From Torymus aiolomorphi (taxonomy: Eukaryota; Arthropoda; Insecta; Hymenoptera; Torymidae), in NCBI GenBank assembly GCA_036365515.1, contig CM070873.1, positions 192,006,604-192,070,603 on the forward strand: a stretch of DNA of 64,000 nucleotides, read 5' to 3'. The translations under genes and the position numbers were made by a program. This document shows, piece by piece, positions 6,647 through 61,500 of the stretch. Below the pieces are notes generated by a model. That model saw nothing but the letters and a program-made list of their open reading frames with translations. It did no database searches and was not told the origin of the DNA. Numbering within the stretch: the first letter of the stretch is position 1; each line of letters opens with the position of its first letter.

Positions 6647-8650
6647 TTACAACAATAAGCGCACTAAATTCATGATATCATTATCTTCGTCATCGTTTTC
6701 TTCATTATTGTACCCATGATTACAAAGCAGTCTGTACATTTCGTCAGTGGGTTGAAAGCTCAAAACGTTTTTGCAGCCGTGAAGCTTTAAATAGCTTACG
6801 GTCTGCATTAGAGCGTTTATGGTTTTTGTTGTTAATCGATTTCTATGTTTCGTTTTGAGAAGCCTTTCTAAACTCCAGGTTCTTTCCGATTCTGCATTTG
6901 AATGAGGGGTACATAAAATGTTCAATGCAAATTTAGCAAGATTTGCAAATATTAATTGGTCGTCTTCATTGCGTACAGATACCATGATAAACCAAAAATA
7001 ATCTGCATCAAGATCTTGATCAAAGTCAACCATATTTTCGGTTAATGCATCCCACTCATTTTCTACTTCCTCTTGTCTTAATCCTTGGAGGGCCCGAGGA
7101 TATAACTCTATCAAATTTTGCATTATTCTTATATTATTTACATGAAAGTCATTTGAAAGAGCACTAGAGGGAAGAAGACAATTGAGGATTCTGTATTGAT
7201 GCCATGGGATTAGTAAGCATTACCTCGCTTGCCGCGCTAAACAAATAAAATAATTTCTAAAATTTGTCATCAATGTTCTCCATTCTTCTTCATCTAAATT
7301 AAGAACTAAATTCATTATAGAATCATCAATTTCCAGTTCATTTAAGCTTTTATAATTCGTCTCGTCATCATGGTTAATAGCGTCGACGTCAGTATCATCG
7401 ACGTATTGATTTTGTAAAAAATGCTTCACAATATCGAGATAAGTGTCTTCAATTCTATCATATACTATATGTATTAGTACCTGTTCTCCTTGAAGCCATC
7501 CATTCAGATTTTCCATCATTGGTAAAATATAATTTAGAAACATTAAGTAGCATTTCATTGTGGTATTATTAAATATATCACATAAACGGCTTGCTACATC
7601 ATTATCATGCGACATTCCGTATAATACATTATAAATCGGAACCCATTGATTTAGAATGTGATTTATGCAGGGTCCCATTTCGAGCCATCGTGTGGGAACA
7701 GGCCTCAAAATTTGGTGAACATCATAATTTTCATTTATTTGCTCTTGCGATAACAAACGCTTCCTCTTCGGGCTTTTAAAAAAGTTATATACATCACGAG
7801 GCAAATCAATGATATCTTGAGGTAGTTCTCTTATGGCATACGAAGCGCTCAAATGCGCAGTGTGGCACGGGCATGAAATTGTGTGAATGCCAGGGAAATC
7901 TCTTCTAAACTTTTGTGCGATAGAATTTGCAACACCTACCATAACACTGCACCCATCAGACACAAAGGCTTGTAAATTTTCTCGTGGAATTATCAAAAAA
8001 TTGCAAAGCGACTCTAAAATTCGCTGATAGAGTCCGTTAGCCGTAGCTTCGCTCATTTCGTCGTCGTCGTTATAAATGGGTACAATGGCCCAAAGTGCGG
8101 TAATAACTTTATTCAATTCCACATTGAAAAATCTTACTATAATACAGCCGTGTTTTTTAGTCGACACGTCCGTTGACTCATCGAAAAGAATTGAAAATGC
8201 GTGAGTGCGAAGAAGATTCATAAGCTCAGCTTTATAAGAAACAGCAATAACATCTTTTGTAATTTTTTTGCATAAGATTACGCTTCATTTTTACTTCCCT
8301 TAGAGCGTGCAAATTTTGGAAAACGTTAACTATTAGAGGTAATAGTTCATCGATTAACGCAAAAGGTAAACGATTTTTTGCAAAAAACATGCATAAAATA
8401 ATTTTGATCCTCGAAACTTCTTTTCTAAATTCATCTTCGTCTTCATTTACTTCATTATCGGGATCTAAATTTTGTAATCGTCTGATATGCGCAGCTGATC
8501 TCGAGTGATCGTTATTGTTCTTAAATGTGCATTTAAGACGTTATTACAAATAATGCAACAAGCTTTATCCGCTCGATCGGGATGGGCCCTTAACCATTGG
8601 CGTCGATTTCGGTCTAACTGCCAAATATACCTGTAGTGCCGAACATCTTG
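6647..8650 (-). pseudogene. hAT superfamily transposase, decayed
   Basis: Two long minus-strand frames, 7220-8221 (333 codons) and 6647-7123 (158 codons), are pieces of one transposase. The first holds the hAT catalytic start (FDESTDVS near its residue 13), an SDG motif (FVSDGCSVMVG), a CPCHTAHLSA stretch and PTRWLEMG. The second holds the C-terminal dimerisation block (NAESERTWSLERLLK and RNRLTTKTINAL). Upstream, at 8500-8640, a frame-shifted segment encodes a zinc-finger-like CIICNN..AHLR stretch, as expected for the N-terminal BED-type finger. At least three frame breaks (near 7130-7215, 8225-8290 and 8480-8520) show that it is inactive. Family members cut and paste DNA with 8-bp target duplications. 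Element ends were not found; gtggcaaacccta at about 9104 could be the 5' end. Confidence 0.85.
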
Positions 8651-10138: not shown

Positions 10139-10788
10139 CCCATACAGCATGAAAGAAAACTGAAATAATTACATGAAATAATTCATGAATTAATACATTG
10201 AAATGATTTAGAAAGAATTTTAAAAGGAAAAAAAATTAATTTTAAAATAATTTTTAAAATAATATATGGAATCCTTACAAAATACTTTCAAAAATCTTCC
10301 AAAAAAATAAAAAAAGTGTTACCAAAAAATAATTACACGAATTAATTCTGAAAGGACTTTGAAAAGATTTTTTGAAAGAATACATAAAATAATTTCGAAA
10401 TTATTGCAAGTATTCTTTCATGCAATAATTCAGAAATAATTTCAGAAAGATACAAATTAATCATTCACAAAAATAATTCAATATCTATTCAAAAATCTTA
10501 CATGAATTATTTCATGAAATCTTCTGGGAAACTCGTGTGAATTAATACAAGAAATAATTTTGAATTCTTTTGAAAAAGATTTTTAGAATAAAATTTTTTA
10601 AAACAAAATAGCAAAAAAATAATTACACGAATTAATTCTGAAAGGACTTTGAAAAGATTTTTTGAAAGAATACATAAAATAATTTCGAAATTATTGCAAG
10701 TATTCTTTCATGCAATAATTCAGAAATAATTTTAGAAAGATACAAATTAATCATTCACAAAAATAATTCAGTATCTATTCAAAAATCT

Positions 10789-10942
10789 GGCATGGTGTGG
10801 TTTCTACACATAAGAATTATGCACATATTTATTGTGCACACTTTAGCATTGGAGTATACACATAGATATAGATATACACCAATGCCAAAGTGTGCACAAT
10901 AATTATGTGCATAATTCTTATGTGCACAAACCACACCATGCC
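10789..10942. mobile_element. 154-bp MITE, hAT-type, copy 1
   Basis: The whole element is a foldback starting GGCATGGTGTGGTTTCTACA and ending with the near-exact complement. An 8-bp duplication, aaaaatct, lies at 10781-10788 and 10943-10950. An 8-bp target duplication is the hAT signature. Confidence 0.85.
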
Positions 10943-12856
10943 AAAAATCTTACATGAATTATTTGATGAAATCTTCTGGGAAACTCGTGTGAATTAATAC
11001 AAGAAATAATTTTGAATTGTTTTGAAAAAGATTTCTAGAATAAAATTTTTTAAAACAAAATAGCAAAAAAAAATAATTACACGAATTAATTCTGAAAGGA
11101 CTTTGAAAAGATTTTTAGAATAAAATTTTTTAAAACAAAATAGCAAAAAAAATAATTACACGAATTAATTCTGAAAGGACTTTGAAAAGATTTTTTGAAA
11201 GAATACATAAAATAATTTCGAAATTATTGCAAGTATTCTTTCATGCAATAATTCAGAAATAATTTCAGAAAGATACAAATTAATCATTCACAAAAATAAT
11301 TCAGTATCTATTCAAAAATCTTACATGAATTATTTCATGAAATCTTCTGGGAAACTCGTCTGAATTAATACAAGAAATAATTTTGAATTCTTTTGAAAAA
11401 GATTTTTAAAATAAAATTTTTTAAAACAAAATAGCAAAAAAAATAATTACACGAATTAATTCTGAAAGGACTTTGAAAAGATTTTTTGAAAGAATACATA
11501 AAATAATTTCGAAATTATTGCAAGTATTCTTTCATGCAATAATTCAGAAATAATTTCAGAAAGATACAAATTAATCATTCACAAAAATAATTCAGTATCT
11601 ATTCAAAAATCTTACATGAATTATTTCATGAAATCTTCTGGGAAACTCGTGTGAATTAATACAAGAAATAATTTTGAATTCTTTTGAAAAAGATTTTTAA
11701 AATAAAATTGTTTAAAACAAAATAGCAAAAAAAATTATTACACGAATTAATACTGAAAGGACTTTGAAAAGATTTTTTGAAAGAATACATAAAATAATTT
11801 CGAAATTATTGCAAGTATTCTTTCATGCAATAATTCAGAAATAATTTCAGAAAGATACAAATTAATCATTCACAAAAATAATTCAATATCTATTCAAAAA
11901 TCTTACATGAATTATTTCGTGAAATCTTCTGGGAAACTCGTGTGAATTAATACAAGAAATAATTTTGAATTCTTTTGAAAAAGATTTTTAAAATAAAATT
12001 GTTTAAAACAAAATAGCAAAAAAAGTTATTACACGAATTAATACTGAAAGGACTTTGAAAAGATTTTTTGAAAGAATACATAAAATAATTTCGAAATTAT
12101 TGCAAGTATTCTTTCATGCAATAATTCAGAAATAATTTCAGAAAGATACAAATTAATCATTCACAAAAATAATTCAATATCTATTCAAAAATCTTACATG
12201 AATTATTTCGTGAAATCTTCTGGGAAACTCGTGTGAATTAATACAAGAAATAATTTTGAATTGTTTTGAAAAAGATTTTTAGAATAAAATTTTTTAAAAC
12301 AAAATAGCAAAAAAAAATAATTACACGAATTAATTCTGAAAGGACTTCGAAAAGATTTTTAGAATAAAATTTTTTAAAACAAAATAGCAAAAAAAATAAT
12401 TACACGAATTAATTCTGAAAGGACTTTGAAAAGATTTTTTGAAAGAATACATAAAATAATTTCGAAATTATTGCAAGTATTCTTTCATGCAATAATTCAG
12501 AAATAATTTCAGAAAGATACAAATTAATCATTCACAAAAATAATTCAGTATCTATTCAAAAATCTTACATGAATTATTTCATGAAATCTTCTGGGAAACT
12601 CGTGTGAATTAATACAAGAAATAATTTTGAATTCTTTTGAAAAAGATTTTTAGAATAAAATTTTTTAAAACAAAATAGCAAAAAAAATAATTACACGAAT
12701 TAATTCTGAAAGGACTTTGAAAAGATTTTTTGAAAGAATACATAAAATAATTTCGAAATTATTGCAAGTATTCTTTCATGCAATAATTCAGAAATAATTT
12801 TAGAAAGATACAAATTAATCATTCACAAAAATAATTCAGTATCTATTAAAAAATCT

Positions 12857-13010
12857 GGCATGGTGTGGTTTCTACACATAAGAATTATGCACATATTTAT
12901 TGTGCACACTTTAGCATTGGAGTATACACATAGATATAGATATACACCAATGCTAAAGTGTGCACAATAATTATGTGCATAATTCTTATGTGCACAAACC
13001 ACACCATGCC
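12857..13010. mobile_element. 154-bp MITE, hAT-type, copy 2
   Basis: Nearly identical to 10789-10942, with the same aaaaatct flanks (12849-12856 and 13011-13018). It sits at the same position of the array unit 2068 bp downstream, so it arose by duplication of the array block rather than by a second insertion. Confidence 0.85.
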
Positions 13011-15331
13011 AAAAATCTTACATGAATTATTTGATGAAATCTTCTGGGAAACTTGTGTGAATTAATACAAGAAATAATTTTGGATTGTTTTGAAAAAGAT
13101 TTTTAGAATAAAATTTTTTAAAACAAAATAGCAAAAAAAAAATAATTACACGAATTAATTCTGAAAGGACTTTGAAAAGATTTTTAGAATAAAATTTTTT
13201 AAAACAAAATAGCAAAAAAAATAATTACACGAATTAATTCTGAAAGGACTTTGAAAAGATTTTTTGAAAGAATACATAAAATAATTCCGAAATTATTGCA
13301 AGTATTCTTTCATGCAATAATTCAGAAATAATTTCAGAAAGATACAAATTAATCATTCACAAAAATAATTCAGTATCTATTCAAAAATCTTACATGAATT
13401 ATTTCATGAAATCTTCTGGGAAACTCGTCTGAATTAATACAAGAAATAATTTTGAATTCTTTTGAAAAAGATTTTTAAAATAAAATTTTTTAAAACAAAA
13501 TAGCAAAAAAAATAATTACACGAATTAATTCTGAAAGGACTTTGAAAAGATTTTTTGAAAGAATACATAAAATAATTTCGAAATTATTGCAAGTATTCTT
13601 TCATGCAATAATTCAGAAATAATTTCAGAAAGATACAAATTAATCATTCACAAAAATAATTCAGTATCTATTCAAAAATCTTACATGAATTATTTCATGA
13701 AATCTTCTGGGAAACTCGTGTGAATTAATACAAGAAATAATTTTGAATTCTTTTGAAAAAGATTTTTAAAATAAAATTGTTTAAAACAAAATAGCAAAAA
13801 AAATTATTACACGAATTAATACTGAAAGGACTTTGAAAAGATTTTTTGAAAGAATACATAAAATAATTTCGAAATTATTGCAAGTATTCTTTCATGCAAT
13901 AATTCAGAAATAATTTCAGAAAGATACAAATTAATCATTCACAAAAATAATTCAATATCTATTCAAAAATCTTACATGAATTATTTCGTGAAATCTTCTG
14001 GGAAACTCGTGTGAATTAATACAAGAAATAATTTTGAATTCTTTTGAAAAAGATTTTTAAAATAAAATTGTTTAAAACAAAATAGCAAAAAAAATTATTA
14101 CACGAATTAATACTGAAAGGACTTTGAAAAGATTTTTTGAAAGAATACATAAAATAATTTCGAAATTATTGCAAGTATTCTTTCATGCAATAATTCAGAA
14201 ATAATTTCAGAAAGATACAAATTAATCATTCACAAAAATAATTCAATATCTATTCAAAAATCTTACATGAATTATTTCGTGAAATCTTCTGGGAAACTCG
14301 TGTGAATTAATACAAGAAATAATTTTGAATTGTTTTGAAAAAGATTTTTAGAATAAAATTTTTAAAACAAAATAGCAAAAAAAAATAATTACACGAATTA
14401 ATTCTGAAAGGACTTTGAAAAGATTTTTAGAATAAAATTTTTTAAAACAAAATAGCAAAAAAATAATTACACGAATTAATTCTGAAAGGACTTTGAAAAG
14501 ATTTTTTGAAAGAATACATAAAATAATTTCGAAATTATTGCAAGTATTCTTTCATGCAATAATTCAGAAATAATTTCAGAAAGATACAAATTAATCATTC
14601 ACAAAAATAATTCAGTATCTATTCAAAAATCTTACATGAATTATTTCATGAAATCTTCTGGGAAACTCGTGTGAATTAATACAAGAAATAATTTTGAATT
14701 CTTTTGAAAAAGATTTTTAGAATAAAATTTTTTAAAACAAAATAGCAAAAAAAATAATTACACGAATTAATTCTGAAAGGACTTTGAAAAGATTTTTTGA
14801 AAGAATACATAAAATAATTTCGAAATTATTGCAAGTATTCTTTCATGCAATAATTCAGAAATAATTTCAGAAAGATACAAATTAATCATTCACAAAAATA
14901 ATTCAATATCTATTCAAAAATCTTACATGAATTATTTCATGAAATCTTCCGGGAAACTCGTGTGAATTAATAGATTTTTTAAAGAAAACATAACAATTCA
15001 GCAATCATGTCAAGAATTATATCACGAAATAATTCAGAAATAATTTCAGAATGATAAAAATTAATCATTCACAAAGATAATTCAATATCTATTGAAATAA
15101 TTTCATGAATTATTTCATGAAATGTTGCGGGAAACTCACGTGAATTAATACAAGAAATAATTTTGAATTCGTTTGAAAAAGATTGTTACAATAAAATTTT
15201 TTAAAACACAATAGCAAAAAAGATATTTACACGAATTCTTCCTGAAAGAACCTTGAAAAGATTTTTTGAAAGAAAACATAAAATAGTTCAGAAATTATTG
15301 CAAGTATTCAACACGAAAAGGGCAGCGTCCG

Positions 15332-15339
15332 TATATAAG
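15332..15339 (+). promoter_or_regulatory. TATATAAG motif conserved in elements A, B and C
   Basis: TATATAAG sits in a conserved single-copy segment (ggcagcgtccgtatataaga). The same segment is found in B (26669-26676, minus) and C (55535-55542, minus). It could be a TATA box for an element transcript; no downstream frame supports this. Confidence 0.3.
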
Positions 15340-16465
15340 AGGCATCGTATAATGTATTTATTTTGTTTTTAATTCGAATTTGTTTCAATCAAATAAGTCC
15401 TAATTAATACAATATTTAATAAACAAAACTTACTAAATAAGTATATACTAATTAAACAAAGTTAATATTAAAAAATAAAGAAATATTAGAAATAAATATT
15501 CTAATTTATTTTGTCAGTCATTTTGCACTATATAATGAAAAAAATGAAATGATTGGATAATGATCGGATTTAGTCGTCCATTGTTTTCTACATTCGTATG
15601 ATCCTATTAAAGAACGTATTAAAATGTGTGGGGGTATATAATTTTTCGTTTTTGTGAACTAAGATAGATTGAAACATTTACTAATTGCGAAAAATATTAA
15701 TTTGAAAAGTTAATGTAAGAATATAAAAACTTAAAATAAAAGGAAAAAAAACATTTAAAGATGAATAATATAGGTACTTAAAATAAGCAATATTTTTTAT
15801 TATTATTCATAATAGTATTCTTTCAGTATGACAATGTTTAGAAGTCCTCTCAAAATCGACAGAAATATTATTTATACGTCTGCCAAGAGTAAAGAGCCTT
15901 TGACTCTAAAAGTTGATTCTAAATTGAAAACACTACAAATAATAATAACGTCGGTAAGGTAGAGCTCATTCTATTCATCTCTGCATTATATGCAATTATC
16001 ATTTTTTTATTTTTATCGAATTTCGGGAAAAGAGCTCTTTATTGCCCTTCGTAATGACAAAAATACACTATGTGTAAATTTTCAAGTTATTGCTCGTTAT
16101 AGATTTTACAGGAAACGGGTTGAAAAATTTTCTATCAGTTTTTTATGAAAAATAATGAACAGAATTTCTGAAAAATTTATAGGTGTATTATTTATGCAAT
16201 TACGGAGTGCAGTGAAGAGCTTCATTCATCAAAAGTTGAATCTAAGATCAAAAAAATGTAAAAACTCATAACGTCGGTAAGGAAGAGCTCGCTTTATACA
16301 CACACATTTCACATCGACTTAATACAATATTTAATAAGCTAAGACAATTACATAACTATGAATTAATTCATCAAAGGAAATATTAAAAAATAGAGTAATA
16401 TTAAGAATAAATTTTCTGTATCACTCATATAGCAGTATATAATGAAAAAATGAAATGATCTAACA

Positions 16466-16536
16466 AGCGAGCGATAGCGTAATGGATAGCGTATTTGCGT
16501 AGTACCCAAGCGACCCGGGTTCGAATCTCCATCATG
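16466..16536 (+). ncRNA. tRNA-like segment in element A
   Basis: It contains an A-box-like tagcgtaatgga and a B-box-like gggttcgaatct at tRNA-like spacing. The anticodon and T stems have several mismatches, so a working tRNA is unlikely. The same sequence is in element B on the opposite strand, and a diverged relative lies at 39098-39171. A tRNA-derived SINE head is the simplest reading. Confidence 0.5.
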
Positions 16537-17710
16537 TAAAAAATTTTTCTGCGTTTTTTTCTGCGATAAAATAGTGTAAAATTATTAACAATGTAAATAT
16601 ATGTAAAAATAGTTAGAATATTATTTAAATAATATTCTAAATTATAAAAATGTACCTTCAAATACGGGATTATATATACCCTTCGAAATTTATTGTTAGT
16701 AATATTTACTAAATATTTTCTAATTAATTCACAATATTTATTCCTGAATCCTTCCAAAAATCTTTCATTGAAAGGATTCTGCAATAATACATGATTTTAT
16801 AACCTTCGAAATTTTTTGTTAGTAATATTTCCATTATATTTTCGAATTAATTCACAATATTAATTCCTGAATCCTTTCATACATCTTTCATTGAAAGGAT
16901 TCAGGAATTAATTTTGTGAATTAATTCGAAAATATTATGGAAATATTACTAAAAAGAAATTTCAAAGAGTATAAATAACGTATTATTGCAGAATCCTTCA
17001 ATGAAAGATGTCTGAAAGGATTCAGGAATTAATTTTGTGAGTTAATTCGAAAATATTATGGAAATATTACTAAAAAGAAATTTCGAACAGTATAAATCAC
17101 GTATTATTACAGAATCCTTTCAATGAAAGATGTCTGAAAGGATTCAGGAATTAATTCACAAATTAATTCCTGAATCCTTTGAGACATCTTTCATTGGATG
17201 GATTCTGTAATAATACGGGATTTATCCGTCTTCCAAATTTCTTGTTAGTAATATTTTCATAATATTTTCGAATTAATTCACAAAATTAATTCCTGAATCC
17301 TTTCAGACATCTTTCATTGAAAGGATTCTGCAATAATATGTGATATTAATTCTGAAAGGATTCTGTAAGATTCTTTCAGAAATCATTCAGTGAAAGGATT
17401 CTGTAATGATGCTATGTCCGGGGTATTTTCCTTTCAGAATTATTTCAGGAAATAATTTTGAAATATCTTTTAGTAACCTTTTGGTAATAATCCATGAATC
17501 CTTTCAGAAATCTTCTATTGAATAAATTTTGCAATGATATTATAAATTATTTTTGAATTATTCCATTGAATTAATTCTGAAAGGAAAATACCCCGGACAT
17601 AGCATTATTACAGAATCCTTTCACTGAATGATTTCTGAAAGAATAAAATTATTTCATGCATTCTTTCAGAATCCTTTCAGAATTAATACATGCTGTGTGG
17701 GAGACGTAGA

Positions 17711-18906: not shown

Positions 18907-21342
18907 TCATTTTATTGTAACTATTTTATAATCATTATCAAACGAAGTAAGTTTTGCTTTTAATGTTGAATCATCAATGGGTATAAAGCAGTGATATTTT
19001 CTTGTATTCTGTATAGTTCGGGTCAATTTAAAACAGCATTCTAGTACTTTACGCCTTTTCTCAATTGTTTCTTGACTCACCCAAATAGATCTAAAAACCA
19101 AATATTCTATATTTTTATAATACATAATGATCTATTATTCAAATACATAATCAAATAATATAGTCAAAAAATCTAAATTATATTATTTTTACCTTATTCC
19201 ATCAATATTTTCACTAACGTAATCATACATGTCTTTTGGATTTAAAATTGGTTTTTCTGATGTTCTTTGTAAGGATGCCCTGCGTACTGTTCGTTTAACC
19301 ACTGCTCCACATCCATCACACGGACTTTTCCCATGGCTAGTAGAAAAAAAGTTGTGCGACTTAACTTTTAAGCCAAAATCTTCCTCATGATGGCAGATAT
19401 TAATGAAATTGTTCCTACAGTAAATAAATACTATCTTGAAGGTAAAAATTATAAAAAATAAAATAAATCTGTTTAATATTGTGTACATAATAATACAAAT
19501 TATTTGAACTTGCATCATAGAAGTTGTTGCTTTTTTTAAATTTGATATACAGAAAAAATAAAGAACTGTTTTAGTAATTTTATCTTTAAAGCTGTTTTCT
19601 ACATAATGTAAAATTTTAACTCGGGTGTAACCTGCAGGTCCAGGATCTTTATGGATTTTGATGTTCTGGGTCTCAAAATAGTTTTTCACACAAATTAAAT
19701 ATACTTTCAGAATATTACTTTGACATATTCTTAATAATTAAAATTACATTTTTTCAGGTCATTTTAATGAACAAAAATCTAAAGGTGTCTATTTTGTTCA
19801 TATAATACGTATTAATATACTACAATAAAAGTACTCTTACTTGTTTTTGTATTGGGTAGGTGCTCCATCTGACATATAATGTACATTCTCAATAAACGGA
19901 AAATCTCGTTTTAGAAGTGCAATGAGTTGCCCTTGAAAAGTGTTAACTGCACAAGCATCATGTTTTAAACAATCACTAATAACACATACAGATAAGGTTT
20001 GTAATTTGTCGTTATTGTCTTCTTTATAATACACTACAAACGGGTGTACAGTTGCTTGTGTATTATTAAAATAAAATGCTTGGATCGAGTCTTGACAAAC
20101 AAATAAGAAATTTTCAGCAAAATCTTGAAGTATAATACATGTATCTGGAGTAATAATTGTTTTGCAATGTTTTAAATAACATTTTTGCATTTCAGTCACA
20201 TAATGATGCTTTGTTAACTCCCATAAGTCATTGGCTAAATTTATAATAAATTTTCTTGTAGGTTTTTTTACCATAATAAGACTGACTCTATTATTAGATT
20301 GTGATTCAGCATTATTTACCCAATTATAATATTCAATCTCTGAAACATCTTCGCATGAGCTTGATTCCAATATTTTCAGAATTTCTGCTTTACCAGGACA
20401 GTTTTCACAAAGATGTAGCATACAATCGCTCCAATCTGTTGAACAAACACAATCGTTTAAAATTACTCGGTAGGCTAAATTTTTGTTGATGGCAGACAAT
20501 TTTAATTTGACATTTTGGTGTATAGGACATACACAAATTGTATGTGTACCAGGTGTTCCAGCACTAATACATTCTTTTGGCCTTAAAGAAGCAAATATAC
20601 TGAAACCTGGTTTGCGCTGATCTTTAAAATGCTGTTCATATTCTTCTTCCACCCAATTGTTGTATAGATCCTTCAAATCATACATCAACAGTCTTTTTTG
20701 TAACTTCTCTGTGATATTAGTAATAGGATTTTTAACACTGATGCAATCTTTAATGCCGCTACATATTCTACTATTGTTTTCATCTCTATAATACTGAGTT
20801 ACAGATTCTCTAACTTCATTAGAATGAATGCTGTACACTTTACGCTTAATAGTTCCTAAGACACCTGGAAAAATATATTTTGAAATTAATTTCAAATAGT
20901 GTATACTTAATCACAAAATAAAATCATAATAACAATATTATTTTTTTTAATTTAACGATTATCAAGACGATAAAATTTAGCTCAATGTTTATTCTATTTT
21001 AATTACTATGACTTGTTATATTGAAAGAAAAGAAATAGTTTAGAATTAATTTATTTTTTTTTATTTTTTTTTTTATATTAATTTTAATAGTTCTAAATAT
21101 GTTGTAAGCGCTCGTGGTGCTATCTTAATAGTTTTGATTTTTAATCGGACTTCAACGAGCCAATCTCTTATGCGTTAGTCGAATGTCTATTCTCAAATCG
21201 AGAAAGGTAGCTTTTGTTTAAGCTTCCTCCTCTCTCGATAAGAATTTTTTGACAAACGGCGACACACATAAGAGAAAAATTTTTTTTATTTTTATTTTTA
21301 AAAATGAATAACTATTAATTTCGGAATAAAATATAATATCGG

Positions 21343-21409
21343 GGAGTTTCGTCCTTGTCGTACTTGGTGGACTCGTCAGGAAGACCCAAGTAGACATATC
21401 TTCGACTCC
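21343..21409 (-). ncRNA. Hammerhead ribozyme, minus-strand copy
   Basis: Read on the minus strand the 67 nt match the plus-strand copy: GGAG-TC cleavage site, GAAGA/TCTTC stem I, CTGACGA core, GTCC/GGAC stem II, GAAA core and CTCC closing stem III. Predicted cleavage is after the C complementary to 21404. It lies in sense orientation in the intron of the minus-strand gene 18907-23533. Confidence 0.85.
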
Positions 21410-21625
21410 AAAATAATGAAATTACTGTGAATTCTTATAGTATGTAAGTTGTAATTTTATATGTGGATTTGAAAAATTGGTTACCATCTAGTGTTAAATG
21501 GTTGGAACTAAGATTATACAAGGAAAGGCATTTTAGTGTCCGAATGCCATTTGATTCTAAATATGTTGTAAGCGCTCGTGGTGCTATCTTAATAGTTTTG
21601 AATTTTTAATCGGACTTTTATTTTG

Positions 21626-21692
21626 GAGTCGAAGATATGTCTACTTGGGTCTTCCTGACGAGTCCACCAAGTACGACAAGGACGAAACTCCC
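21626..21692 (+). ncRNA. Hammerhead ribozyme, plus-strand copy (type III topology)
   Basis: In order: stem III 5' strand GGAG and cleavage triplet GTC (21629-21631); stem I hairpin GAAGA (21632-21636) with TCTTC (21651-21655); conserved core CTGACGA (21656-21662); stem II GTCC (21663-21666) with GGAC (21681-21684) closing a 14-nt loop; core GAAA (21685-21688); stem III 3' strand CTCC (21689-21692). All invariant hammerhead positions that I can check are present. Stem III is only about 4-5 bp. Self-cleavage is inferred, not shown. Confidence 0.9.
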
Positions 21693-22306
21693 CGATATTA
21701 TATTTTATTCCGAAATTAATAGTTATTCATTTTTAAAAATAAAAATAAAAAAAATTTTTCTCTTATGTGTGTCGCCGTTTGTCAAAAAATTCTTATCGAG
21801 AGAGGAGAAAGCTTAAACAAAAGCTACCTTTCTCGATTTGAGAATAGACATTCGACTAACGCATAAGAGATTGGCTCGTTGAAGTCCGATTAAAAATTCA
21901 AAAAAATTTTAATAGTTGTTTTAAAATCCAATAATTACTTTATTATTTTTTATCTAATAATGAATAACGAAGGGTACCCCATGTTAAGATAGGCAAAATG
22001 CCACTATTAATGAAAGCGAAAAATGACAGTGATTTCATAGAAGTATACTAAAAAAAGAATTTTCTACGATTTTTCCGGGGACCTATATCCCTCCTTATAT
22101 ACAGTAAGGCCTAAAAATCGCATTTTTTGGAAATTATTTTTTTCTCCCGTTCCTCAATGTTAAAAAATTAAAAAAAAAGAAATGAGATTACAGCTTGTAA
22201 ACAGAGAGAACATTGAGATTTCTCAAATATAGATTCTTTCTAATTAAATCGGATTTCATTTAAATGTTTAAATTACAATTCATGTATTATTTTACTTAAT
22301 CCGTAA

Positions 22307-22380
22307 ACAATACTTAAGCAATACGTAAGCAATACGTAAGTAATACATAAATAATAATACTTAAGTAATAATACATGAGT
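22307..22380. repeat. Short tandem run of aatacgtaagc-like units
   Basis: About six imperfect copies of an 11-12-bp unit (aatacttaagc, aatacgtaagc, aatacataaat). It lies in intron 1 of the minus-strand gene. Confidence 0.6.
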
Positions 22381-23533
22381 AATATAAATAAATAATTATG
22401 AGGATTTTAAATTAAATATTTTATAGGGGTACCCTTTATCATTATAGTTGCTTGAACAAAAATTACATAGATTTTAATAAATTAAACTAAAATTTTCTAT
22501 TAATAATTCCCAAGTGTAATATAATATATGTAACCTAATGTATAAAGGATTATCGATTCTATATGTTTACACTATGTCTATAATCAAGATATTAAGAATT
22601 TATTACAACCCATTTTTTAACTTACCTACAGTAATTTTAAGTTCTTTTGCTTTATTAAACATATAACGTGAACATTGGAAATAATGTTTTGCTTGTTCAA
22701 ATTTCCAATGATTTGGAAGTAATGTCAATAACGATATTTTTTTACCAAAATTAGTTTCTTCATTATAACACTTAATTATGTTTCCAATCATTCCGTGAAA
22801 TGACATACTATCCTCTTGTAGCTGTTTAAGATTGCATTGAGTTGGCAAATTAAGATTCAATGTTTTATTAACTGTTGTACAAAATTTCGTATTCATTGAT
22901 TCTAAAACACTGTATGTTTTATTTTCCAAGCGATAATCACTAAGTTTCTCTCGTTTAAGAGGAGGTTCATCAAATCCATCGAGCATTTTATTTAAACGTT
23001 GAAATCCTTGGCTCAATAATATATCTTCTGAACTTTCTGATGTACACACTTGGCTACTTGAAGAAACTTGACTACTTGAAGAAAGCTGCTCATTATTATT
23101 TACGTTTAAACCATCATTCCAAGTGTTTTCATCTTTTTCTGCATTTTTTGTTATTATTCATGTAATTTTGAACTCACAGTTTTTACAGTACTTATTACCT
23201 GGATCTAAATTTATATTACAAATGTTACGAAATTTATCACATTTATCAGCACTAATCATTACTACATTATTCTCAATGGATTTTGAATGATTATTAAAAC
23301 AATTGCAACACTTAATTCCTTTGTCTACTTGTATATCGAATATCATATTTATGAAGATGATGGTCGCAAATAAATTTATTTTCTACATTAATATCAAAAT
23401 TTTTAATCCTAAATGATAAATACAGCTTTAATTCATTACTAAGATTACTAATTAGATTAAGAGATTTATTTCTTGTGTAATGCTCTAAATGACATTTATC
23501 ACCCTCATGCAATTCACCAATATAGCAAATCAT

Positions 23534-24367: not shown

Positions 24368-25466
24368 CCCACACAGCATGTATTAATTCTGAAAGGATTC
24401 TGAAAGAATGCATGAAATAATTTTATTCTTTCAGAAATCATTCAGTGAAAGGATTCTGTAATAATGCTATGTCCGGGGTATTTTCCTTTCAGAATTAATT
24501 CAATGGAATAATTCAAAAATAATTTATAATATCATTGCAAAATTTATTCAATAGAAGATTTCTGAAAGGATTCATGGATTATTACCAAAAGGTTACTAAA
24601 AGATATTTCAAAATTATTTCCTGAAATAATTCTGAAAGGAAAATACCCCGGACATAGCATCATTACAGAATCCTTTCACTGAATGATTTCTGAAAGAATC
24701 TTTCAGAATCCTTTCAGAATTAATATCACATATTATTGCAGAATCCTTTCAATGAAAGATGTCTGAAAGGATTCAGGAATTAATTTTGTGAATTAATTCG
24801 AAAATATTATGAAAATATTACTAACAAGAAATTTGGAATTTGTGAATTAATTCCTGAATCCTTTCAGACATCTTTCATTGAAAGGATTCTGTAATAATAC
24901 GTGATTTATACTGTTCGAAATTTCTTTTTAGTAATATTTCCATAATATTTTCGAATTAATTCACAAAATTAATTCCTGAATCCTTTCAGACATCTTTCAT
25001 TGGAAGGATTCTGCAATAATACGTTATTTATACTCTTTGAAATTTCTTTTTAGTAATATTTCCATAATATTTTCGAATTAATTCACAAAATTAATTCCTG
25101 AATCCTTTCAATGAAAGATGTATGAAAGGATTCAGGAATTAATTTTGTGAATTAATTCGAAAATATAATGGAAATATTACTAACAAAAAATTTCGAAGGT
25201 TATAAAATCATGTATTATTGCAGAATCCTTTCAATGAAAGATTTTTGGAAGGATTCAGGAATAAATATTGTGAATTAATTAGAAAATATTTAGTAAATAT
25301 TACTAACAATAAATTTCGAAGGGTATATATAATCCCGTATTTGAAGGTACATTTTTATAATTTAGAATATTATTTAAATAATATTCTAACTATTTTTACA
25401 TATATTTACATTGTTAATAATTTTACACTATTTTATCGCAGAAAAAAAAGCAGAAAAATTTTTTAC

Positions 25467-25537
25467 ATGATGGAGATTCGAACCCGGGTCGCTTGGGTAC
25501 TACGCAAATACGCTATCCATTACGCTATCGCTCGCTT
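25467..25537 (-). ncRNA. tRNA-like segment in element B
   Basis: Inverse complement of the tRNA-like segment in element A, with the same A-box-like and B-box-like blocks and the same imperfect stems. Confidence 0.5.
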
Positions 25538-26699
25538 GTTAGATCATTTCATTTTTTTCATTATATACTGCAATATGAGTGATACGATACATTAGAAAAT
25601 TTATTCTTAATATTACTTTATTTTTTAATATTAACTTTGATCAATTAATTCATAGTTATTTAATACTTTTAGTTTATTAAATATTGTATTAAGTCGATGT
25701 GAAATGTGTGTGTATAAAGGAGCTCTTCCTTACCGACGTTATGAGTTTTTACATTTTTTGATCTTAGATTCAACTTTTGATGAATGAAGCTCTTCACTGC
25801 ACTCCGTAATTGCATAAATAATACACCTATAAATTTTTCAGAAATTCTGTTCATTATTTTTCATAAAAAACTGGTAGAAAATTTTTCAACCCGTTTCCTG
25901 TAAAATCTATAACGAGCAATAACTTGAAAATTTACACATAGTGTATTTTTGTCATTACGAAGGGCAATAAAGAGCTCTTTTCCCGAAATTCGATAAAAAT
26001 AAAAAATGATAATTGCATATAATGCAGAGATGAATAGAATGAGCTCTACCTTACCGACGTTATTATTATTTGTAGTGTTTTCAATTTAGAATCAACTTTT
26101 AGAGTCAAAGGCTCTTTACTCTTGGCAGACGTATAAATAATATTTCTGTCGATTTTGAGGGGACTTCTAAACATTGTCATACTGAAAGAATACTATTATG
26201 AATAATAATAAAAAATATTGCTTATTTTAAGTACCTATATTATTCATCTTTAAATGTTTTTTTTCCTTTTATTTTAAGTTTTTATATTCTTACATTAACT
26301 TTTCAAATTAATATTTTTCGCAATTAGTAAATGTTACAATCTATCTTAGTTCACAAAAACGAAAAATTATATACCCCCCACACATTTTAATACGTTCTTT
26401 AATAGGATCATACGAATGTAGAAAACAATGGACGACTAAATCCGATCATTATCCAATCATTTCATTTTTTTCATTATATAGTGCAAAATGACTGACAAAA
26501 TAAATTAGAATATTTATTTCTAATATTTCTTTATTTTTTAATATTAACTTTGTTTAATTAGTATATACTTATTTAGTAAGTTTTGTTTATTAAATATTGT
26601 ATTAATTAGGACTTATTTGATTGAAACAAATTCGAATAAAAACAAAATAAATACATTATACGATGCCTCTTATATACGGACGCTGCCCTTTTCGTGTTG

Positions 26700-29460
26700 A
26701 ATACTTGCAATAATTTCTGAACTATTTTATGTTTTCTTTCAAAAAATCTTTTCAAGGTTCTTTCAGGAAGAATTCGTGTAAATATCTTTTTTGCTATTGT
26801 GTTTTAAAAAATTTTATTGTAACAATCTTTTCAAACGAATTCTAAATTATTTCTTGTATTAATTCACGTGAGTTTCCCGCAACATTTCATGAAATAATTC
26901 ATGAAATTATTTTCAATAGATATTGAACTATCTTTGTGAATGATTAATTTTTATCATTCTGAAATTATTTCTGAATTATTTCGTGATATAATTCTTGACA
27001 TGATTGCTGAATTGTTATGTTTTCTTTAAAAAAATCTATTAATTCACACGAGTTTCCCGGAAGATTTCATGAAATAATTCATGTAAGATTTTTGAATAGA
27101 TACTGAATTATTTTTGTGAATGATTAATTTGTATCTTTCTGAAATTATTTCTGAATTATTGCATGAAAGAATACTTGCAATAATTTCGAAATTATTTTAT
27201 GTATTCTTTCAAAAAATCTTTTCAAAGTCCTTTGAGAATTAATTCGTGTAATTATTTTTTTTGCTATTTTGTTTTAAAAAATTTTATTCTAGAAATCTTT
27301 TCAAAGTCCTTTCAGAATTAATTCGTGTAATTATTTTTTTTTGCTATTTTGTTTTAAAAAATTTTATTCAAAAAATTTTTTTCAAAACAATTCAAAATTA
27401 TTTCTTGTATTAATTCACACGGGTTTCCCAGAAGATTTCATCAAATAATTCATGTAAGATTTTTTAATAGATATTGAATTATTTTTGTGAATGATTAATT
27501 TGTATCTTTCTGAAATTATTTCTGAATTATTGCATGAAAGAATACTTGCAATAATTTCGAAATTATTTTATGTATTCTTTCAAAAAATCTTTTCAAAGTC
27601 CTTTCAGTATTAATTCGTGTAATTATTTTTTTTTGCTATTTTGTTTTAAAAAATTTTATTCTAAAAATCTTTTTCAAAACAATTCAAAATTATTTCTTGT
27701 ATTAATTCACACGATTTTCCCAGAAGATTTCATGAAATAATTCATGTAAGATTTTTGAATAGATATTGAATTATTTTTGTGAATGATTAATTTGTATCTT
27801 TGTGAAATTATTTCTGAATTATTGCATGAAAGAATACTTGCAGTAATTTCGAAATTATTTTATGTATTCTTTCAAAAAATCTTTTCAAAGTCCTTTCAGA
27901 ATTAATTCGTGTAATTATTTTTTTTGCTATTTTGTTTTAAAAAATTTTATTTTAAAAATCTTTTTCAAAAGAATTCAAAATTATTTCTTGTATTAATTCA
28001 GACGAGTTTCCCAGAAGATTTCATGAAATAATTCATGTAAGATTTTTGAATAGATACTGAATTATTTTTGTGAATGATTAATTTGTATCTTTCTGAAATT
28101 ATTTCTGAATTATTGCATGAAAGAATACTTGCAATAATTTCGAAATTATTTTATGTATTCTTTCAAAAAATCTTTTCAAAGTCCTTTCAGAATTAATTCG
28201 TGTAATTATTTTTTTTGCTATTTTGTTTTAAAAAATTTTATTCTAAAAATCTTTTCAAAGTCCTTTCAGAATTAATTCGTGTAATTATTTTTTTTTGCTA
28301 TTTTGTTTTAAAAAATTTTATTCTAAAAATCTTTTTCAAAACAATTCAAAATTATTTCTTGTATTAATTCACACGAGTTTCCCAGAAGATTTCATCAAAT
28401 AATTCATGTAAGATTTTTGAATAGATACTGAATTATTTTTGTGAATGATTAATTTGTATCTTTCTAAAATTATTTCTGAATTATTGCATGAAAGAATACT
28501 TGCAATAATTTCGAAATTATTTTATGTATTCTTTCAAAAAATCTTTTCGAAGTCCTTTCAGAATTAATTCGTGTAATTATTTTTTTTGCTATTTTGTTTT
28601 AAAAAATTTTATTCTAAAAATCTTTTTCAAAAGAATTCAAAATTATTTCTTGTATTAATTCACACGAGTTTCCCAGAAGATTTCATGAAATAATTCATGT
28701 AAGATTTTTGAATAGATATTGAATTATTTTTGTGAATGATTAATTTGTATCTTTCTGAAATTATTTCTGAATTATTGCATGAAAGAATACTTGCAATAAT
28801 TTCGAAATTATTTTATGTATTCTTTCAAAAAATCTTTTCAAAGTCCTTTCAGTATTAATTCGTGTAATTATTTTTTTTGCTATTTTGTTTTAAAAAATTT
28901 TATTTTCAAAATCTTTTTCAAAACAATTCAAAATTATTTCTTGTATTAATTCACACGAGTTTCCCAGAAGATTTCATCAAATAATTCATGTAAGATTTTT
29001 GAATAGATACTGAATTATTTTTGTGAATGATTAATTTGTATCTTTCTAAAATTATTTCTGAATTATTGCATGAAAGAATACTTGCAATAATTTCGAAATT
29101 ATTTTATGTATTCTTTCAAAATATCTTTTCAAAGTCCTTTCAGAATTAATTCGTGTAATTATTTTTTTTGCTATTTTGTTTTAAAAAATTTTATTCTAAA
29201 AATCTTTTTCAAAAGAATTCAAAATTATTTCTTGTATTAATTCACACGAGTTTCCCAGAAGATTTCATGAAATAATTCATGTAAGATTTTTGAATAGATA
29301 TTGAATTATTTTTGTGAATGATTAATTTGTATCTTTCTGAAATAATTTCTGAATTATTGCATGAAAGAATACTTGCAATAATTTCGAAATTATTTTATGT
29401 ATTCTTTCAAAAAATCTTTTCAAAGTCCTTTCAGAATTAATTCGTGTAATTATTTTTTGG
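26700..29460 (-). repeat. ~291-bp satellite array inside element B
   Basis: Same unit as in element A, read on the minus strand. Short ~80-bp units also occur here (about 27240-27340 and 28190-28290). The 154-bp hAT-type MITE of element A is absent, so it entered A after A and B separated, or was lost here. Confidence 0.9.
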
Positions 29461-29862
29461 TAACACTTTTTTTATTTTTTTGGAAGATTTTTGAAAGTAT
29501 TTTGTAAGGATTCCATATATTATTTTAAAAATTAATTTAAAATTAATTTTTTTTTCCTTTTAAAATTCTTTCTAAATCATTTCAATGTATTAATTCATGA
29601 ATTATTTCATGTAATTATTTCAGTTTTCTTTCATGCTGTATGTGATACTATACTCAGAATTTTTTGTGGACGATTCTATTAGCATTTTCATGAGATGTAC
29701 TCTTTTTAAAAGTTAATGATGTTAATTCATTACTTCAATTGGGGCAACGATTATTAGAAGAGGAGAGATGTTTAACCTATCAATGGAATATGGATGAACA
29801 AAAAATAACAACTTCCATTATTTCTGCAGCCTGTTCAAAAGATGGAGCAGATGCGTATTCTA

Positions 29863-54421: not shown

Positions 54422-57400
54422 CCCACACAGCATGTATTAATTCTGAAAGGATTCTGAAAGAATGCATGAAATAATTTTATTCTTTCAGAAATCATTCAGT
54501 GAAAGGATTCTGTAATAATGCTATGTCCGGGGTATTTTCCTTTCAGAATTAATTCAATGGAATAATTCAAAAATAATTTATAATATCATTGCAAAATTTA
54601 TTCAATAGAAGATTTCTGAAAGGATTCATGGATTATTACCAAAAGGTTACTAAAAGATATTTCAAAATTATTTCCTGAAATAATTCTGAAAGGAAAATAC
54701 CCCGGACATAGCATCATTACAGAATCCTTTCACTGAATGATTTCTGAAAGAATCTTTCAGAATCCTTTCAGAATTAATATCACATATTATTGCAGAATCC
54801 TTTCAATGAAAGATGTCTGAAAGGATTCAGGAATTAATTTTGTGAATTAATTCGAAAATATTATGAAAATATTACTAACAAGAAATTTGGAAGACGGATA
54901 AATCCCGTATTATTACAGAATCCTTCCAATGAAAGATGTCTCAAAGGATTCAGGAATTAATTTGTGAATTAATTCCTGAATCCTTTCAGACATCTTTCAT
55001 TGAAAGGATGCTGTAATAATACGTGATTTATACTGTTCGAAATTTCTTTTTAGTAATATTTCCATAATATTTTCGAATTAATTCACAAAATTAATTCCTG
55101 AATCCTTTCAGACATCTTTCATTGGAAGGATTCTGCAATAATACGTTATTTATACTTTTTGAAATTTCTTTTTAGTAATATTTCCATAATATTTTCGAAT
55201 TAATTCACAAAATTAATTCCTGAATCCTTTCAGACATCTTTCATTGGAAGGATTCTGCAATAATACGTTATTTATACTCTTTGAAATTTCTTTTTAGTAA
55301 TATTTCTATAATATTTTCGAATTAATTCACAAAATTAATTCCTGAATCCTTTCAATGAAAGATGTATGTATTAGAATATTTATTTCTAATATTTCTTTAT
55401 TTTTTAATATTAACTTTGTTTAATTAGTATATACTTATTTAGTAAGTTTTGTTTATTAAATATTGTATTAATTAGGACTTATTTGATTGAAACAAATTCG
55501 AATAAAAACAAAATAAATACATTATACGATGCCTCTTATATACGGACACTGCCCTTTTCGTGTTGAATACTTGCAATAATTTCTGAACTATTTTATGTTT
55601 TCTTTCAAAAAATCTTTTCAAGGTTCTTTCAGGAAGAATTCGTGTAAATATCTTTTTTGCTATTGTGTTTTAAAAAATTTTATTGTAACAATCTTTTTCA
55701 AACGAATTCTAAATTATTTCTTGTATTAATTCACGTGAGTTTCCCGCAACATTTCATGAAATAATTCATGAAATTATTTTCAATAGATATTGAACTATCT
55801 TTGTGAATGATTAATTTTTATCATTCTGAAATTATTTCTGAATTATTTCGTGATATAATTCTTGACATGATTGCTGAATTGTTATGTTTTCTTTAAAAAA
55901 ATCTATTAATTCACACGAGTTTCCCGGAAGATTTCATGAAATAATTCATGTAAGATTTTTGAATAGATATTGAATTATTTTTGTGAATGATTAATTTGTA
56001 TCTTTCTGAAATTATTTCTGAATTATTGCATGAAAGAATACTTGCAATAATTTCGAAATTATTTTATGTATTCTTTCAAAAAATCTTTTCAAAGTCCATT
56101 CAGAATTAATTCGTGTAATTATTTTTTTTGCTATTTAGTTTTAAAAAATTTTATTTTAAAAATCTTTTTCAAAAGAATTCAAAATTATTTCTTGTATTAA
56201 TTCACACGAGTTTCCCAGAAGATTTCATGAAATAATTCATGTAAGATTTTTGAATAGATACTGAATTATTTTTGTGAATGATTAATTTGTATCTTTCTAA
56301 AATTATTTCTGAATTATTGCATGAAAGAATACTTGCAATAATTTCGAAATTATTTTATGTATTCTTTCAAAAAATCTTTTCAAAGTCCTTTCAGAATTAA
56401 TTCGTGTAATTATTTTTTTTGCTATTTTGTTTTAAAAAATTTTATTCTAAAAATCTTTTTCAAAAGAATTCAAAATTATTTCTTGTATTAATTCACACGA
56501 GTTTCCCAGAAGATTTCATGAAATAATTCATGTAAGATTTTTGAATAGATACTGAATTATTTTTGTGAATGATTAATTTGTATCTTTCTGAAATTATTTC
56601 TGAATTATTGCATGAAAGAATACTTGCAATAATTTCGAAATTATTTTATGTATTCTTTCAAAAAATCTTTTCAAAGTCCTTTGAGAATTAATTCGTGTAA
56701 TTATTTTTTTTGCTATTTTGTTTTAAAAAATTTTATTCTAGAAATCTTTTCAAAGTCCTTTCAGAATTAATTCGTGTAATTATTTTTTTTTGCTATTTTG
56801 TTTTAAAAAATTTTATTCAAAAAATTTTTTTCAAAACAATTCAAAATTATTTCTTGTATTAATTCACACGGGTTTCCCAGAAGATTTCATCGAATAATTC
56901 ATGTAAGATTTTTTAATAGATATTGAATTATTTTTGTGAATGATTAATTTGTATCTTTCTGAAATTATTTCTGAATTATTGCATGAAAGAATACTTGCAA
57001 TAATTTCGAAATTATTTTATGTATTCTTTCAAAAAATCTTTTCAAAGTCCTTTCAGTATTAATTCGTGTAATTATTTTTTTTTTGCTATTTTGTTTTAAA
57101 AAATTTTATTCTAAAAATCTTTTTCAAAACAATCCAAAATTATTTCTTGTATTAATTCACACGATTTTCCCAGAAGATTTCATGAAATAATTCATGTAAG
57201 ATTTTTGAATAGATATTGAATTATTTTTGTGAATGATTAATTTGTATCTTTGTGAAATTATTTCTGAATTATTGCATGAAAGAATACTTGCAATAATTTC
57301 GAAATTATTTTATGTATTCTTTCAAAAAATCTTTTCAAAGTCCTTTCAGAATTAATTCGTGTAATTATTTTTTTTGCTATTTTGTTTTAAAAAATTTTAT

Positions 57401-60400: not shown

Positions 60401-60787
60401 GAAGATTTCATGAAATAATTCATGTAAGATTTTTGAATAGATATTGAATTATTTTTGTGAATGATTAATTTGTATCTTTCTGAAATTATTTCTGAATTAT
60501 TGCATGAAAGAATACTTGCAATAATTTCGAAATTATTTTATGTATTCTTTCAAAAAATCTTTTCAAAGTCCTTTCAGAATTAATTCGTGTAATTATTTTT
60601 TGGTAACACTTTTTTTATTTTTTTGGAAGATTTTTGAAAGTATTTTGTAAGGATTCCATATATTATTTTAAAAATTAATTTAAAATTAATTTTTTTTTCC
60701 TTTTAAAATTCTTTCTAAATCATTTCAATGTATTAATTCATGAATTATTTCATGTAATTATTTCAGTTTTCTTTCATGCTGTATGGG
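54422..60787 (-). mobile_element. Element C: array-bearing element with internal deletion
   Basis: It starts CCCACACAGCATGTATTAAT and ends with the complement of CCCATACAGCATGAAAGAAA. Compared with B, about 1.4 kb (the tRNA-like segment and part of the single-copy region) is missing: the terminal repeats jump at ~55367 into tattagaatatttatttcta. The array (~55600-60600) has about 17 units. It begins inside the terminal hairpin of the giant foldback. No matching target duplication is seen. Confidence 0.8.
55600..60600 (-). repeat. ~291-bp satellite array inside element C
   Basis: Same unit as in A and B on the minus strand. Short ~80-bp units occur at about 56690-56800, 57640-57760, 58300-58430, 59250-59370 and 59930-60040. 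62-codon frames across the short units recur in A and C and are not genes. Confidence 0.9.
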
Positions 60788-61500
60788 CTTGCTGTCCTAG
60801 CCCATTTGCGTGTCGGCGTCATTCGCAGGCTATTTAGTAGAATTTTTTAAATAGCATGTTATTGTTATTAGCGCGACTGCGTGCCCCACTCCTTTGACGC
60901 GGAACTTTCACCAGGCTATTCGGGGTTTTAGATTTTGTCACTAATAGTTTACTGTTTCTATCTTGTCTGCTTGCCTCGAACCTACAACGTAAAACGTGCA
61001 TCCCCAGGCTACTTTGCGGCTTAATAATTTTGAATTTGCAATTCGGTTCCTTTAGCGTGTCTGCGTGCCTCACACCTCCTACGTATAGAACTCGCACTCC
61101 CAGGCAATTTCAGGATTAATAATTTATTAAATAGCAGTTCACTATTTTTAGCGTGTTTGCCTGACCCACTCTTTCTACGCGGAACTTGCATCCTCAGGCG
61201 ATTTGAAATTTTTTAACTAGCAGTTTACTGTTTTTAATATGTCTGCGAGCTCCATTCCTTCTGCAAGGGTGAACTTACTACCCCAGGGTATTTGGGGTTT
61301 AAACATTTTTTAAATAGCAGTTTTGTTTTTATCATGTTTGCGTACCTCACGTCTACTACGTAAAACGTGCATGCCAGATTATTTTGAAGCTTAATCATTT
61401 TTAATTTGCAACTTAGTGTATTTGGCCTGTTTGTGTTTCGCACAGCTTCTATGTGGAACTCGCATCTCGAGGGTATTTGCGGATTAAGAATTATTAAGTT
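60788..61500. repeat. Tandem array, ~93-bp unit, seven to eight copies
   Basis: Units read like gcgtgtctgcgtgcctcaca, then ctacgtaaaacgtgcatccc, then caggctattt..ggtttaa and taaatagcagtttactgttt. Starts at about 60787, 60870, 60962, 61053, 61149, 61237, 61332 and 61424. Minus-strand frames here are not genes. Confidence 0.8.

Follow-up and report, generated by a model that had tools for sequence, protein, structure and literature searches.

Opposed type III hammerhead ribozymes in an insect genome belong to a probable retrozyme with Penelope-like insertion ends

Plant LTR retrozymes are reported to carry a type III hammerhead together with a tRNA-Met primer-binding site (PMC4918200). Metazoan non-LTR retrozymes are described as small AT-rich units with one hammerhead, arranged as tandem multimers and flanked by duplications longer than 4 bp, for which the ribozyme is of type I and the expressed RNAs are approximately 170-400 nt (PMC7229834). 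Penelope-like elements have been proposed as the movers of these animal retrozymes, on the grounds of shared type I hammerheads, tandem copies, and co-occurrence (PMC7229834, PMC7761336). Canonical Penelope elements join a reverse transcriptase (RT) and a GIY-YIG endonuclease in one ORF, and the enzyme studied in vitro is reported to cut and extend both target strands, starting at two adjacent internal sites, the stretch between which forms the 30-40 bp genomic "tail" (PMC11167929). Rotifer Penelopes are described with inverted pLTRs, one of which has a tail of 31 bp, along with partial tandems and duplications of 8-10 bp (PMC3846280). Pseudoknotted type III hammerheads are reported from termite and dipteran genomes and from toad and termite delta-like RNAs; the termite examples were described as isolated, and none is reported to have turned up when hymenopterans, hemipterans, and a cockroach were searched by structure (PMC7936874). 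Insects are also named, as work in preparation, among the organisms with type III elements (PMC7761336). In the open-licence PMC literature we found neither a type III non-LTR retrozyme nor an LTR retrozyme from an animal, and no description of retrozymes bearing the Penelope tail signature; given the mention in PMC7761336, part of the finding of type III retrozymes in an insect may be known to others.

The locus described here lies in a stretch of 64,000 nt from Torymus aiolomorphi (GCA_036365515.1, contig CM070873.1, 192,006,604-192,070,603, forward strand), hereafter the window. An earlier sequence-only reading had proposed two 67-nt type III hammerheads on opposite strands of one foldback, and both are present with identical sequences: one at 21625-21691 on the plus strand and its mirror at 21343-21409 on the minus strand. 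Cleavage of the minus copy is predicted after 21404, as that reading had it, and that of the plus copy after C21630 and not 21631. In the plus copy, the open stem III is formed by GGAG (21625-21628) and CTCC (21688-21691) with U21629-A21687, the closed stem I by GAAGA (21631-21635) and TCTTC (21650-21654), and the closed stem II by GTCC (21662-21665) and GGAC (21680-21683); the cleavage triplet is GTC (21628-21630), and the core segments are CTGACGA (21655-21661) and GAAA (21684-21687). Position 7 of the hammerhead core, which is variable, is C in both copies. The core pattern with a closed stem II gave two matches in the window and none in 100 shuffles. The Rfam type III model RF00008, whose catalytic core, closed stems I and II, and open stem III are all found here, aligns end to end with both copies (33.6 bits, E 2.9e-5 for 830 nt), but this score lies below its gathering score of 48.5, so that a covariance-model search, proposed earlier as a check, recovers the ribozymes only under the threshold. 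No Rfam family reaches its gathering score across the whole 64-kb window, and a standard Rfam scan therefore shows nothing. Judged by their architecture, the window ribozymes are likely to be active, and because each lies opposite its own complement in the other arm, activity in cis may be reduced. The expectation that a type III order would be unusual in an arthropod-like genome is borne out, tempered by the insect reports of PMC7936874 and PMC7761336.

The two ribozymes are copies of one 464-nt unit, which rules out two independent ribozymes of opposite polarity. The insertion, 812 bp at 21093-21904, consists of two arms that together make about 1.8 laps of the unit, and it is flanked by a 13-bp target-site duplication, AATTTTAATAGTT, at 21080-21092 and 21905-21917; among 5,552 control pairs drawn from AT-rich sites of the window at a distance of 812 bp, none shared a 13-mer in this way. 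The long arm (21093-21617, minus sense) covers 1.14 laps and has its outer end at unit position 312, termed P2, and the short arm (21618-21904, plus, in the reverse direction) covers 0.62 lap with its outer end at unit position 271, termed P1. A direct repeat of 62-63 nt on the minus strand, with copies at 21091-21152 and 21555-21617, has a spacing of 464 nt, indicating that copying went on beyond one full unit. Read along the minus strand, 286-287 nt in antisense are followed by the sense segments D'-S1-A-D, in which D' and D are this same repeat 464 nt apart. The foldback proposed earlier is confirmed, with arms at 21132-21416 and 21618-21902 that are 99% complementary and differ by one substitution and one indel across 286 aligned positions. 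Up to E 10, the mirrored pair accounts for every hammerhead match within 21091-21920. A single polarity of the unit therefore bears the ribozyme, and the idea of a functional opposite-strand pair gives way to a second ribozyme that is the same unit copied in the reverse direction. Inside 21093-21904 there is no stop-to-stop ORF of at least 120 aa, and no RT or endonuclease is encoded. The two ribozymes thus look like one self-cleaving RNA unit copied twice, in opposite directions, during a single retrotransposition event.

The insertion is held by an apparent intron (GTAAG...CCAG, 20865-22625, minus strand, splice motifs identified by eye) of a minus-strand transposon gene (19189-20910 and 22603-23157), the exons of which are covered on both sides by homologues; homologue P0058 aligns up to 22612 and resumes from 20865. 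The gene has no Pfam match and 120 homologues, and those with a name come from insects, crinoids, and a sponge. A 97% copy of it was observed on an ENA contig.

The two closed loops of the window ribozyme, loop 1 (UAUGUCUACUUGGG, 21636-21649, plus) and loop 2 (ACCAAGUACGACAA, 21666-21679, plus), are complementary over seven contiguous nucleotides and four more past a one-base bulge. Their duplex has a predicted energy of -14.7 kcal/mol, which was equalled by 3 of 5,000 shuffled loop pairs, and at least seven contiguous pairs were reached by 283 of 20,000 shuffled pairs. The lowest-energy fold of the 67-mer computed without pseudoknots is a nested hairpin at -19.0, versus -9.6 for the hammerhead without the kiss; as the nested hairpin uses the same loop complementarity, the hammerhead would need the kiss as its tertiary contact. 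The contact between loops 1 and 2 is a Watson-Crick kiss and not the textbook non-Watson-Crick contact. In this it resembles the hammerheads of PMC7936874, which are likewise type III with a 5-bp first stem in helix I and a Watson-Crick contact between helix I and loop 2, but which are described with a longer helix I containing an internal loop and with a 4-nt contact, GCCR/YGGC. The sequence-only reading had also suggested that the short stem III favours dimers; we dropped this idea, as nothing supports it: type III hammerheads are reported to cleave efficiently as monomers (PMC6155905), and loops 1 and 2 can kiss.

The kiss differs between families of the ribozyme found elsewhere in the genome. 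It is UACUUGG/CCAAGUA in family A, which includes the window copies, UACCGGG/CCCGGUA in C, GGCUACUAGA/UCUAGUAGCC in B, GGGUUACUAGA/UCUAGUAACCC in B2, GUUACCAUC/GAUGGUAAC in D, and GUCUGUCCGC/GCGGGCAGAC in E, the last with one G-U; the loops of E (L167) and B2 (L168) were taken from copies that fail our strict finder. Families A and C are 86-87% alike over the ribozyme region, yet they show double changes in the kiss. Ten cognate loop pairs average -15.1 kcal/mol and non-cognate pairs -5.6. For families A, B, C, D, and E, the true pairing was the best among 120 permutations, and each cognate value was the lowest in its row, whereas for the weak pairs D2 (L174) and F (L156) foreign loops pair better than their own. 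This covariation is the strongest evidence that the ribozyme structure, including the kiss, was under selection.

A search of the genome (1,084,570,280 bases, 21 contigs) for the ribozyme core, which the sequence-only reading had recommended for the cassette, gave 1198 forward and 1137 reverse matches, and none on either strand for the reversed control; these 2,335 are core matches counted by pattern, each a candidate ribozyme. One hundred listed sites among them form 43 clusters, in which same-strand spacings are 351-358 nt (family B), 447-466 nt (A and C, and one D2 pair at 466), or, in three cases, near 910. The units are 464 nt in A, 353 nt in B, and 457 nt in C, and, being noncoding tandem units with one hammerhead each, they have the make-up of a retrozyme. 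Compared to metazoan non-LTR retrozymes, they share the small AT-rich units, single hammerhead, tandem multimers, and duplications longer than 4 bp (PMC7229834); they are distinct in having a type III ribozyme where those have type I, a long kiss, units of 353-464 nt, and Penelope-like ends. For closer study, 20 stretches covering the first 18 listed clusters were taken, plus L121/L123 and L122/L124, which were found by Rfam. Under the strict finder, 21 stretches (L155-L174 and L123) contain 57 complete type III hammerheads, of which 49 have at least seven contiguous complementary loop bases; L155, L167, L168, and L169 gave none, though the core is present. The listed genome copies score 33.6-40.2 bits against RF00008, and both genome Rfam matches are below the gathering cut-off (68 of 148,516 candidates scored). 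All examined loci of families A-C are on contig C1 (at 0.4-15 Mb, at 137 Mb, and in the window at 192 Mb), and only L122 is elsewhere.

The head-to-head design is not confined to the window. Among the 100 listed sites, opposite-strand neighbours within 2 kb are ordered minus then plus in 10 of 10 cases and never plus then minus; three of the ten (a 16-kb array, L162, and L163) have inverted flanks. We tried 15 loci, 14 of which map to families A-C while L174 does not. Eleven of the 14 are two-armed, all head-to-head, and L157, L160, and L161 have one arm only. A duplication of 11-14 bp flanks nine of the 14 (L155, L157, L158, L159, L170, L172, L173, L123, and the window), eight of them two-armed; at L160, L161, and L171 there are only matches of 8 bp. 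A few bases of the duplications may belong to the element ends as well, and the duplication of L172, the flanks of which are alike, is less secure. By these 11-14 bp duplications and head-to-head arms, families A-C are set apart from plant LTR retrozymes as described (PMC4918200).

The outer ends of the arms were mapped at the eight two-armed insertions with a duplication and at L157 and L160, with unit position 0 being the first base after cleavage and with BLAST edges as arm ends, good to about 10 nt. In all eight two-armed insertions, P1 is found at one outer end and P2, 31-43 nt further, at the other. The pairs are 312 with 271 (window) or 280 (L155) in family A; 240/197, 239/199, and 238/201 in family B; and 303/272, 306/274, and 306/264 in family C. 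Of the single-arm loci, L157 ends at 201 and L160 at 269. The P1/P2 split is independent of which arm is longer, and the inner ends vary. The arms run about 0.5-3.8 laps, and the short arm of L155 maps as two non-collinear pieces. Since 14 of 16 arms cross the cleavage site, the template must have been uncut or re-ligated there. A circle is favoured as the template because multimers carrying an efficient type III ribozyme would be expected to be cut. In family C, laps differ by 5.5 positions per 250 nt within an arm, 8.3 between arms, and 6.2 between insertions, so that laps within an insertion are no more alike than laps across insertions, and rolling on a single circle is not shown by them; the corresponding family B values are dominated by indels. 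P1 is enclosed by a stem of 6-9 bp in all three families (GCTCGT/ACGAGC in A, a longer one with the same core in C, and TGCCCG/CGGGCA in B), a possible enzyme-binding hairpin that is suggestive across the families but weak evidence alone, as equally good stems occur elsewhere at 146 of 464 (A), 62 of 353 (B), and 51 of 457 (C) positions.

These ends are similar to those of Penelope-like elements, which also show head-to-head partial copies, partial tandems, short duplications, a 30-40 nt tail, and a hammerhead upstream of the start sites (PMC11167929, PMC3846280). Both the head-to-head arms with a short duplication and the start sites about 30-40 nt apart are features of Penelope insertions. 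The differences are that Penelope hammerheads are reported as minimal type I (PMC7761336), that the window element is type III, and that it encodes neither of the two proteins which an autonomous Penelope-like element supplies for itself; such genes are present elsewhere in the genome. GIY-YIG matches were found in five ORFs (two in L164 and one each in L166, L123, and L169), three of them above the Pfam cut-off, and the L169 ORF also matches RVT_1. The ORF at L164:270-2453 has 1,054 relatives at E ≤ 0.001, and RVT_1 is found in most of the 120 listed. We call these genes Penelope-like because of the joined RT and GIY-YIG of canonical Penelope elements (PMC11167929). One GIY-YIG ORF adjoins each end of the 16-kb family A array, and in L164, with its neighbouring RT/GIY-YIG gene, no hammerhead was reported outside the array.

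Taken together, the ribozyme architecture, kiss covariation, unit repeats, head-to-head arms, P1/P2 ends, duplications, and RT/GIY-YIG genes, all read from the sequence, lead us to conclude, with a probability of roughly 0.75, that the element is a type III non-autonomous retrozyme moved in trans by a Penelope-like RT acting on both target strands. The course that we infer, including cleavage, circularisation, and the identity of the enzyme, would begin with transcription of a genomic unit (464 nt in the window), after which the kiss-stabilised hammerhead would cut the RNA to unit length, and the monomer would be ligated into a circle, or longer multimers would persist. A Penelope-like RT/GIY-YIG endonuclease supplied in trans would bind the unit RNA, cut both strands of an AT-rich target with a stagger of about 13 nt, and begin reverse transcription on both cut strands at P1 and P2, fixed positions inside the unit separated by about 31-43 nt. 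Each cDNA would run about 0.5-3.8 laps round the unit before the two are joined. The product would be a single insertion with head-to-head arms, a ribozyme on each strand, and a target-site duplication, and at its outer end one arm would exceed the other by the P1-P2 "tail". Against this mechanism, hammerhead mutants of the RNA of the tested Penelope enzyme are reported to be inserted still, unprocessed RNA is given as its dominant substrate, and its start site is described as the same for both strands, in contrast to the strict P1/P2 split of the families studied here (PMC11167929).

A different account of the arms is classical twin priming, in which a LINE enzyme copies a linear, multimeric transcript; the first cDNA starts from the RNA 3′ end, and priming by the second target strand takes place upstream, leaving a 5′ inversion. 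The duplications of 11-14 bp, the head-to-head arms, and the AT-rich targets would all agree with this, and in three of the eight insertions (the window, L123, and L172) the start of one arm lies no more than about 22 nt from the stop of the other. In the remaining five, however, the junction is non-contiguous and the arms overlap by whole laps. Classical twin priming fixes only one start, whereas both arms have near-fixed starts here. A pair of adjacent start sites is what has been reported for the Penelope enzyme (PMC11167929), and we consider twin priming unlikely.

A second alternative is that the inverted repeat itself is mobile, as a foldback DNA transposon or a satellite inversion, with the ribozymes as passengers. 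Some loci fit this description. The family B foldbacks L162:3930-5288 and L163:4235-4721 lie between inverted flanks that are common to both loci (TGCATAAAGGC..., 46 and 48 bp at 100%), and neither shows a target duplication, as though an element moving at the DNA level had carried them along. The array of 16.2 kb at C1:6354808-6371013 (L164-L166), with 33 family A core matches (26 minus and 7 plus), also lies between inverted flanks, namely GIY-YIG gene fragments that are 99.5% identical and start where the unit ends. We rejected the array as a giant two-armed insertion, because the sequences bordering it on either side are one RT/GIY-YIG gene fragment in opposite orientations, broken at the same point, which makes a larger palindrome or a join made in assembly more probable. 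The inverted flanks at L162/L163 and at the array imply spreading or rearrangement of some copies as DNA, and some (L160/L161, L162/L163, and the array) have spread or rearranged by means other than the mechanism proposed above. As an explanation of the window and the seven other insertions, this alternative is quite improbable, because these have unequal arms, different unit ends, and direct duplications, while terminal inverted repeats would give matching ends.

Similarly improbable is an origin of the copies from an infectious circular RNA of viroid-like or delta-like kind. Pseudoknotted type III hammerheads on both polarities are reported for the delta-like RNAs of toad and termite (PMC7936874), and the circular 464-nt unit is predicted to be strongly self-paired, with a fold of -92.6 kcal/mol compared to -69.3 ± 4.0 for 60 shuffles, none of which was as low (z -5.8). 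The single polarity of the ribozyme in the unit speaks against such an agent, and the 2,335 genomic cores together with the retrotransposition marks at the examined loci point to a genomic source. Self-priming, by which one cDNA or antisense RNA would fold back and be copied into a hairpin, is favoured in PMC3846280 for head-to-head Penelope copies with junction palindromes, and it would suit L173, where the inner ends of the arms nearly coincide on the unit (373 and 368). The inner ends are far apart in the other seven of eight insertions (250 and 451 in the window), and the short arm of the window has the one-base variant of D' and not that of its supposed template arm, although this concerns one site only; we regard self-priming as very improbable. 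An assembly or amplification fold-back artefact is hardly credible, since loci with different flanks share the design and the duplications and the window insertion interrupts an apparent intron with exons continuing in the same orientation on both sides, even if inverted flanks like those of the 16-kb array and L162/L163 are expected of a fold-back join.

The retrozyme reading with a Penelope-like mover can be set beside a different element of the same genome. At L122:527-1681 (G000:C5), two TG..CA repeats of 305-306 nt, 97% alike, each contain a family D hammerhead, with a spacing of 850 nt, and a 4-bp GAAT duplication is present. A PBS-like stretch, TGGTGACCCCGTCGTGATATGAACACGCA, which we take to resemble the 3′ end of tRNA-Trp, stands just after the first repeat, and a PPT-like tract, GGGGAGGG, precedes the second. 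This single locus thus has the TG..CA LTRs, each with a hammerhead, and the 4-bp duplication of an LTR retrozyme, and it is a candidate for one in an animal genome. It follows the plan of plant LTR retrozymes, with the same type III hammerhead, and its putative primer would differ from the tRNA-Met that they are reported to use (PMC4918200).

Combining these observations, we tentatively suggest, at a little under even odds, that a Penelope RT in this insect integrates ribozyme-made circles by two-strand priming at two fixed sites, with a head-to-head multi-lap foldback as the usual insertion, and that the same kissing type III class has been taken up by an LTR retrozyme, both life cycles being present in one genome. 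Earlier grounds for Penelope as the mover were those of PMC7229834 and PMC7761336 cited above; as the insertion ends resemble the two-start pattern measured in vitro for a Penelope enzyme, the question of the mover becomes directly testable with one RNA and one protein. The 2,335 core matches add an abundant animal type III hammerhead class, the scored copies of which are all below the Rfam gathering cut-off. They also supply an element for the kind of motif that was reported as isolated in termites, and L122 provides a candidate LTR retrozyme outside plants.

The exact core was found in none of a collection of other genome contigs, and a pattern including stem III gave no match in the genome-contig or the viral-contig collection. 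A looser core pattern occurs in at least 120 viral stretches (IMG/VR contigs), and a simple classifier assigned the 141 matches in those listed stretches to type I (124), type III (4), or neither (13); loop complementarity in the four type III-like matches was never above 4 nt. The viral hammerheads have a longer loop 2, and some contigs carry several copies, e.g., five each in L023 and L051 among the matches listed.

Around the insertion, the window contains large tandem satellite arrays at 10139-15300, 26500-29642, and 55370-64000. The segments 13723-17164 and 24837-28289 are 94% inverted copies of each other, which places the ribozyme element inside a much larger inverted arrangement. A hAT-type transposase fragment lies at 6647-8284 on the minus strand, with Dimer_Tnp_hAT in 6647-7219, and a P-element-type transposase fragment at 61581-62756 on the plus strand. 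Named relatives of three transposon proteins are mostly from ants and parasitoid wasps, and also from beetles, a fly, crinoids, a sponge, and a fish.
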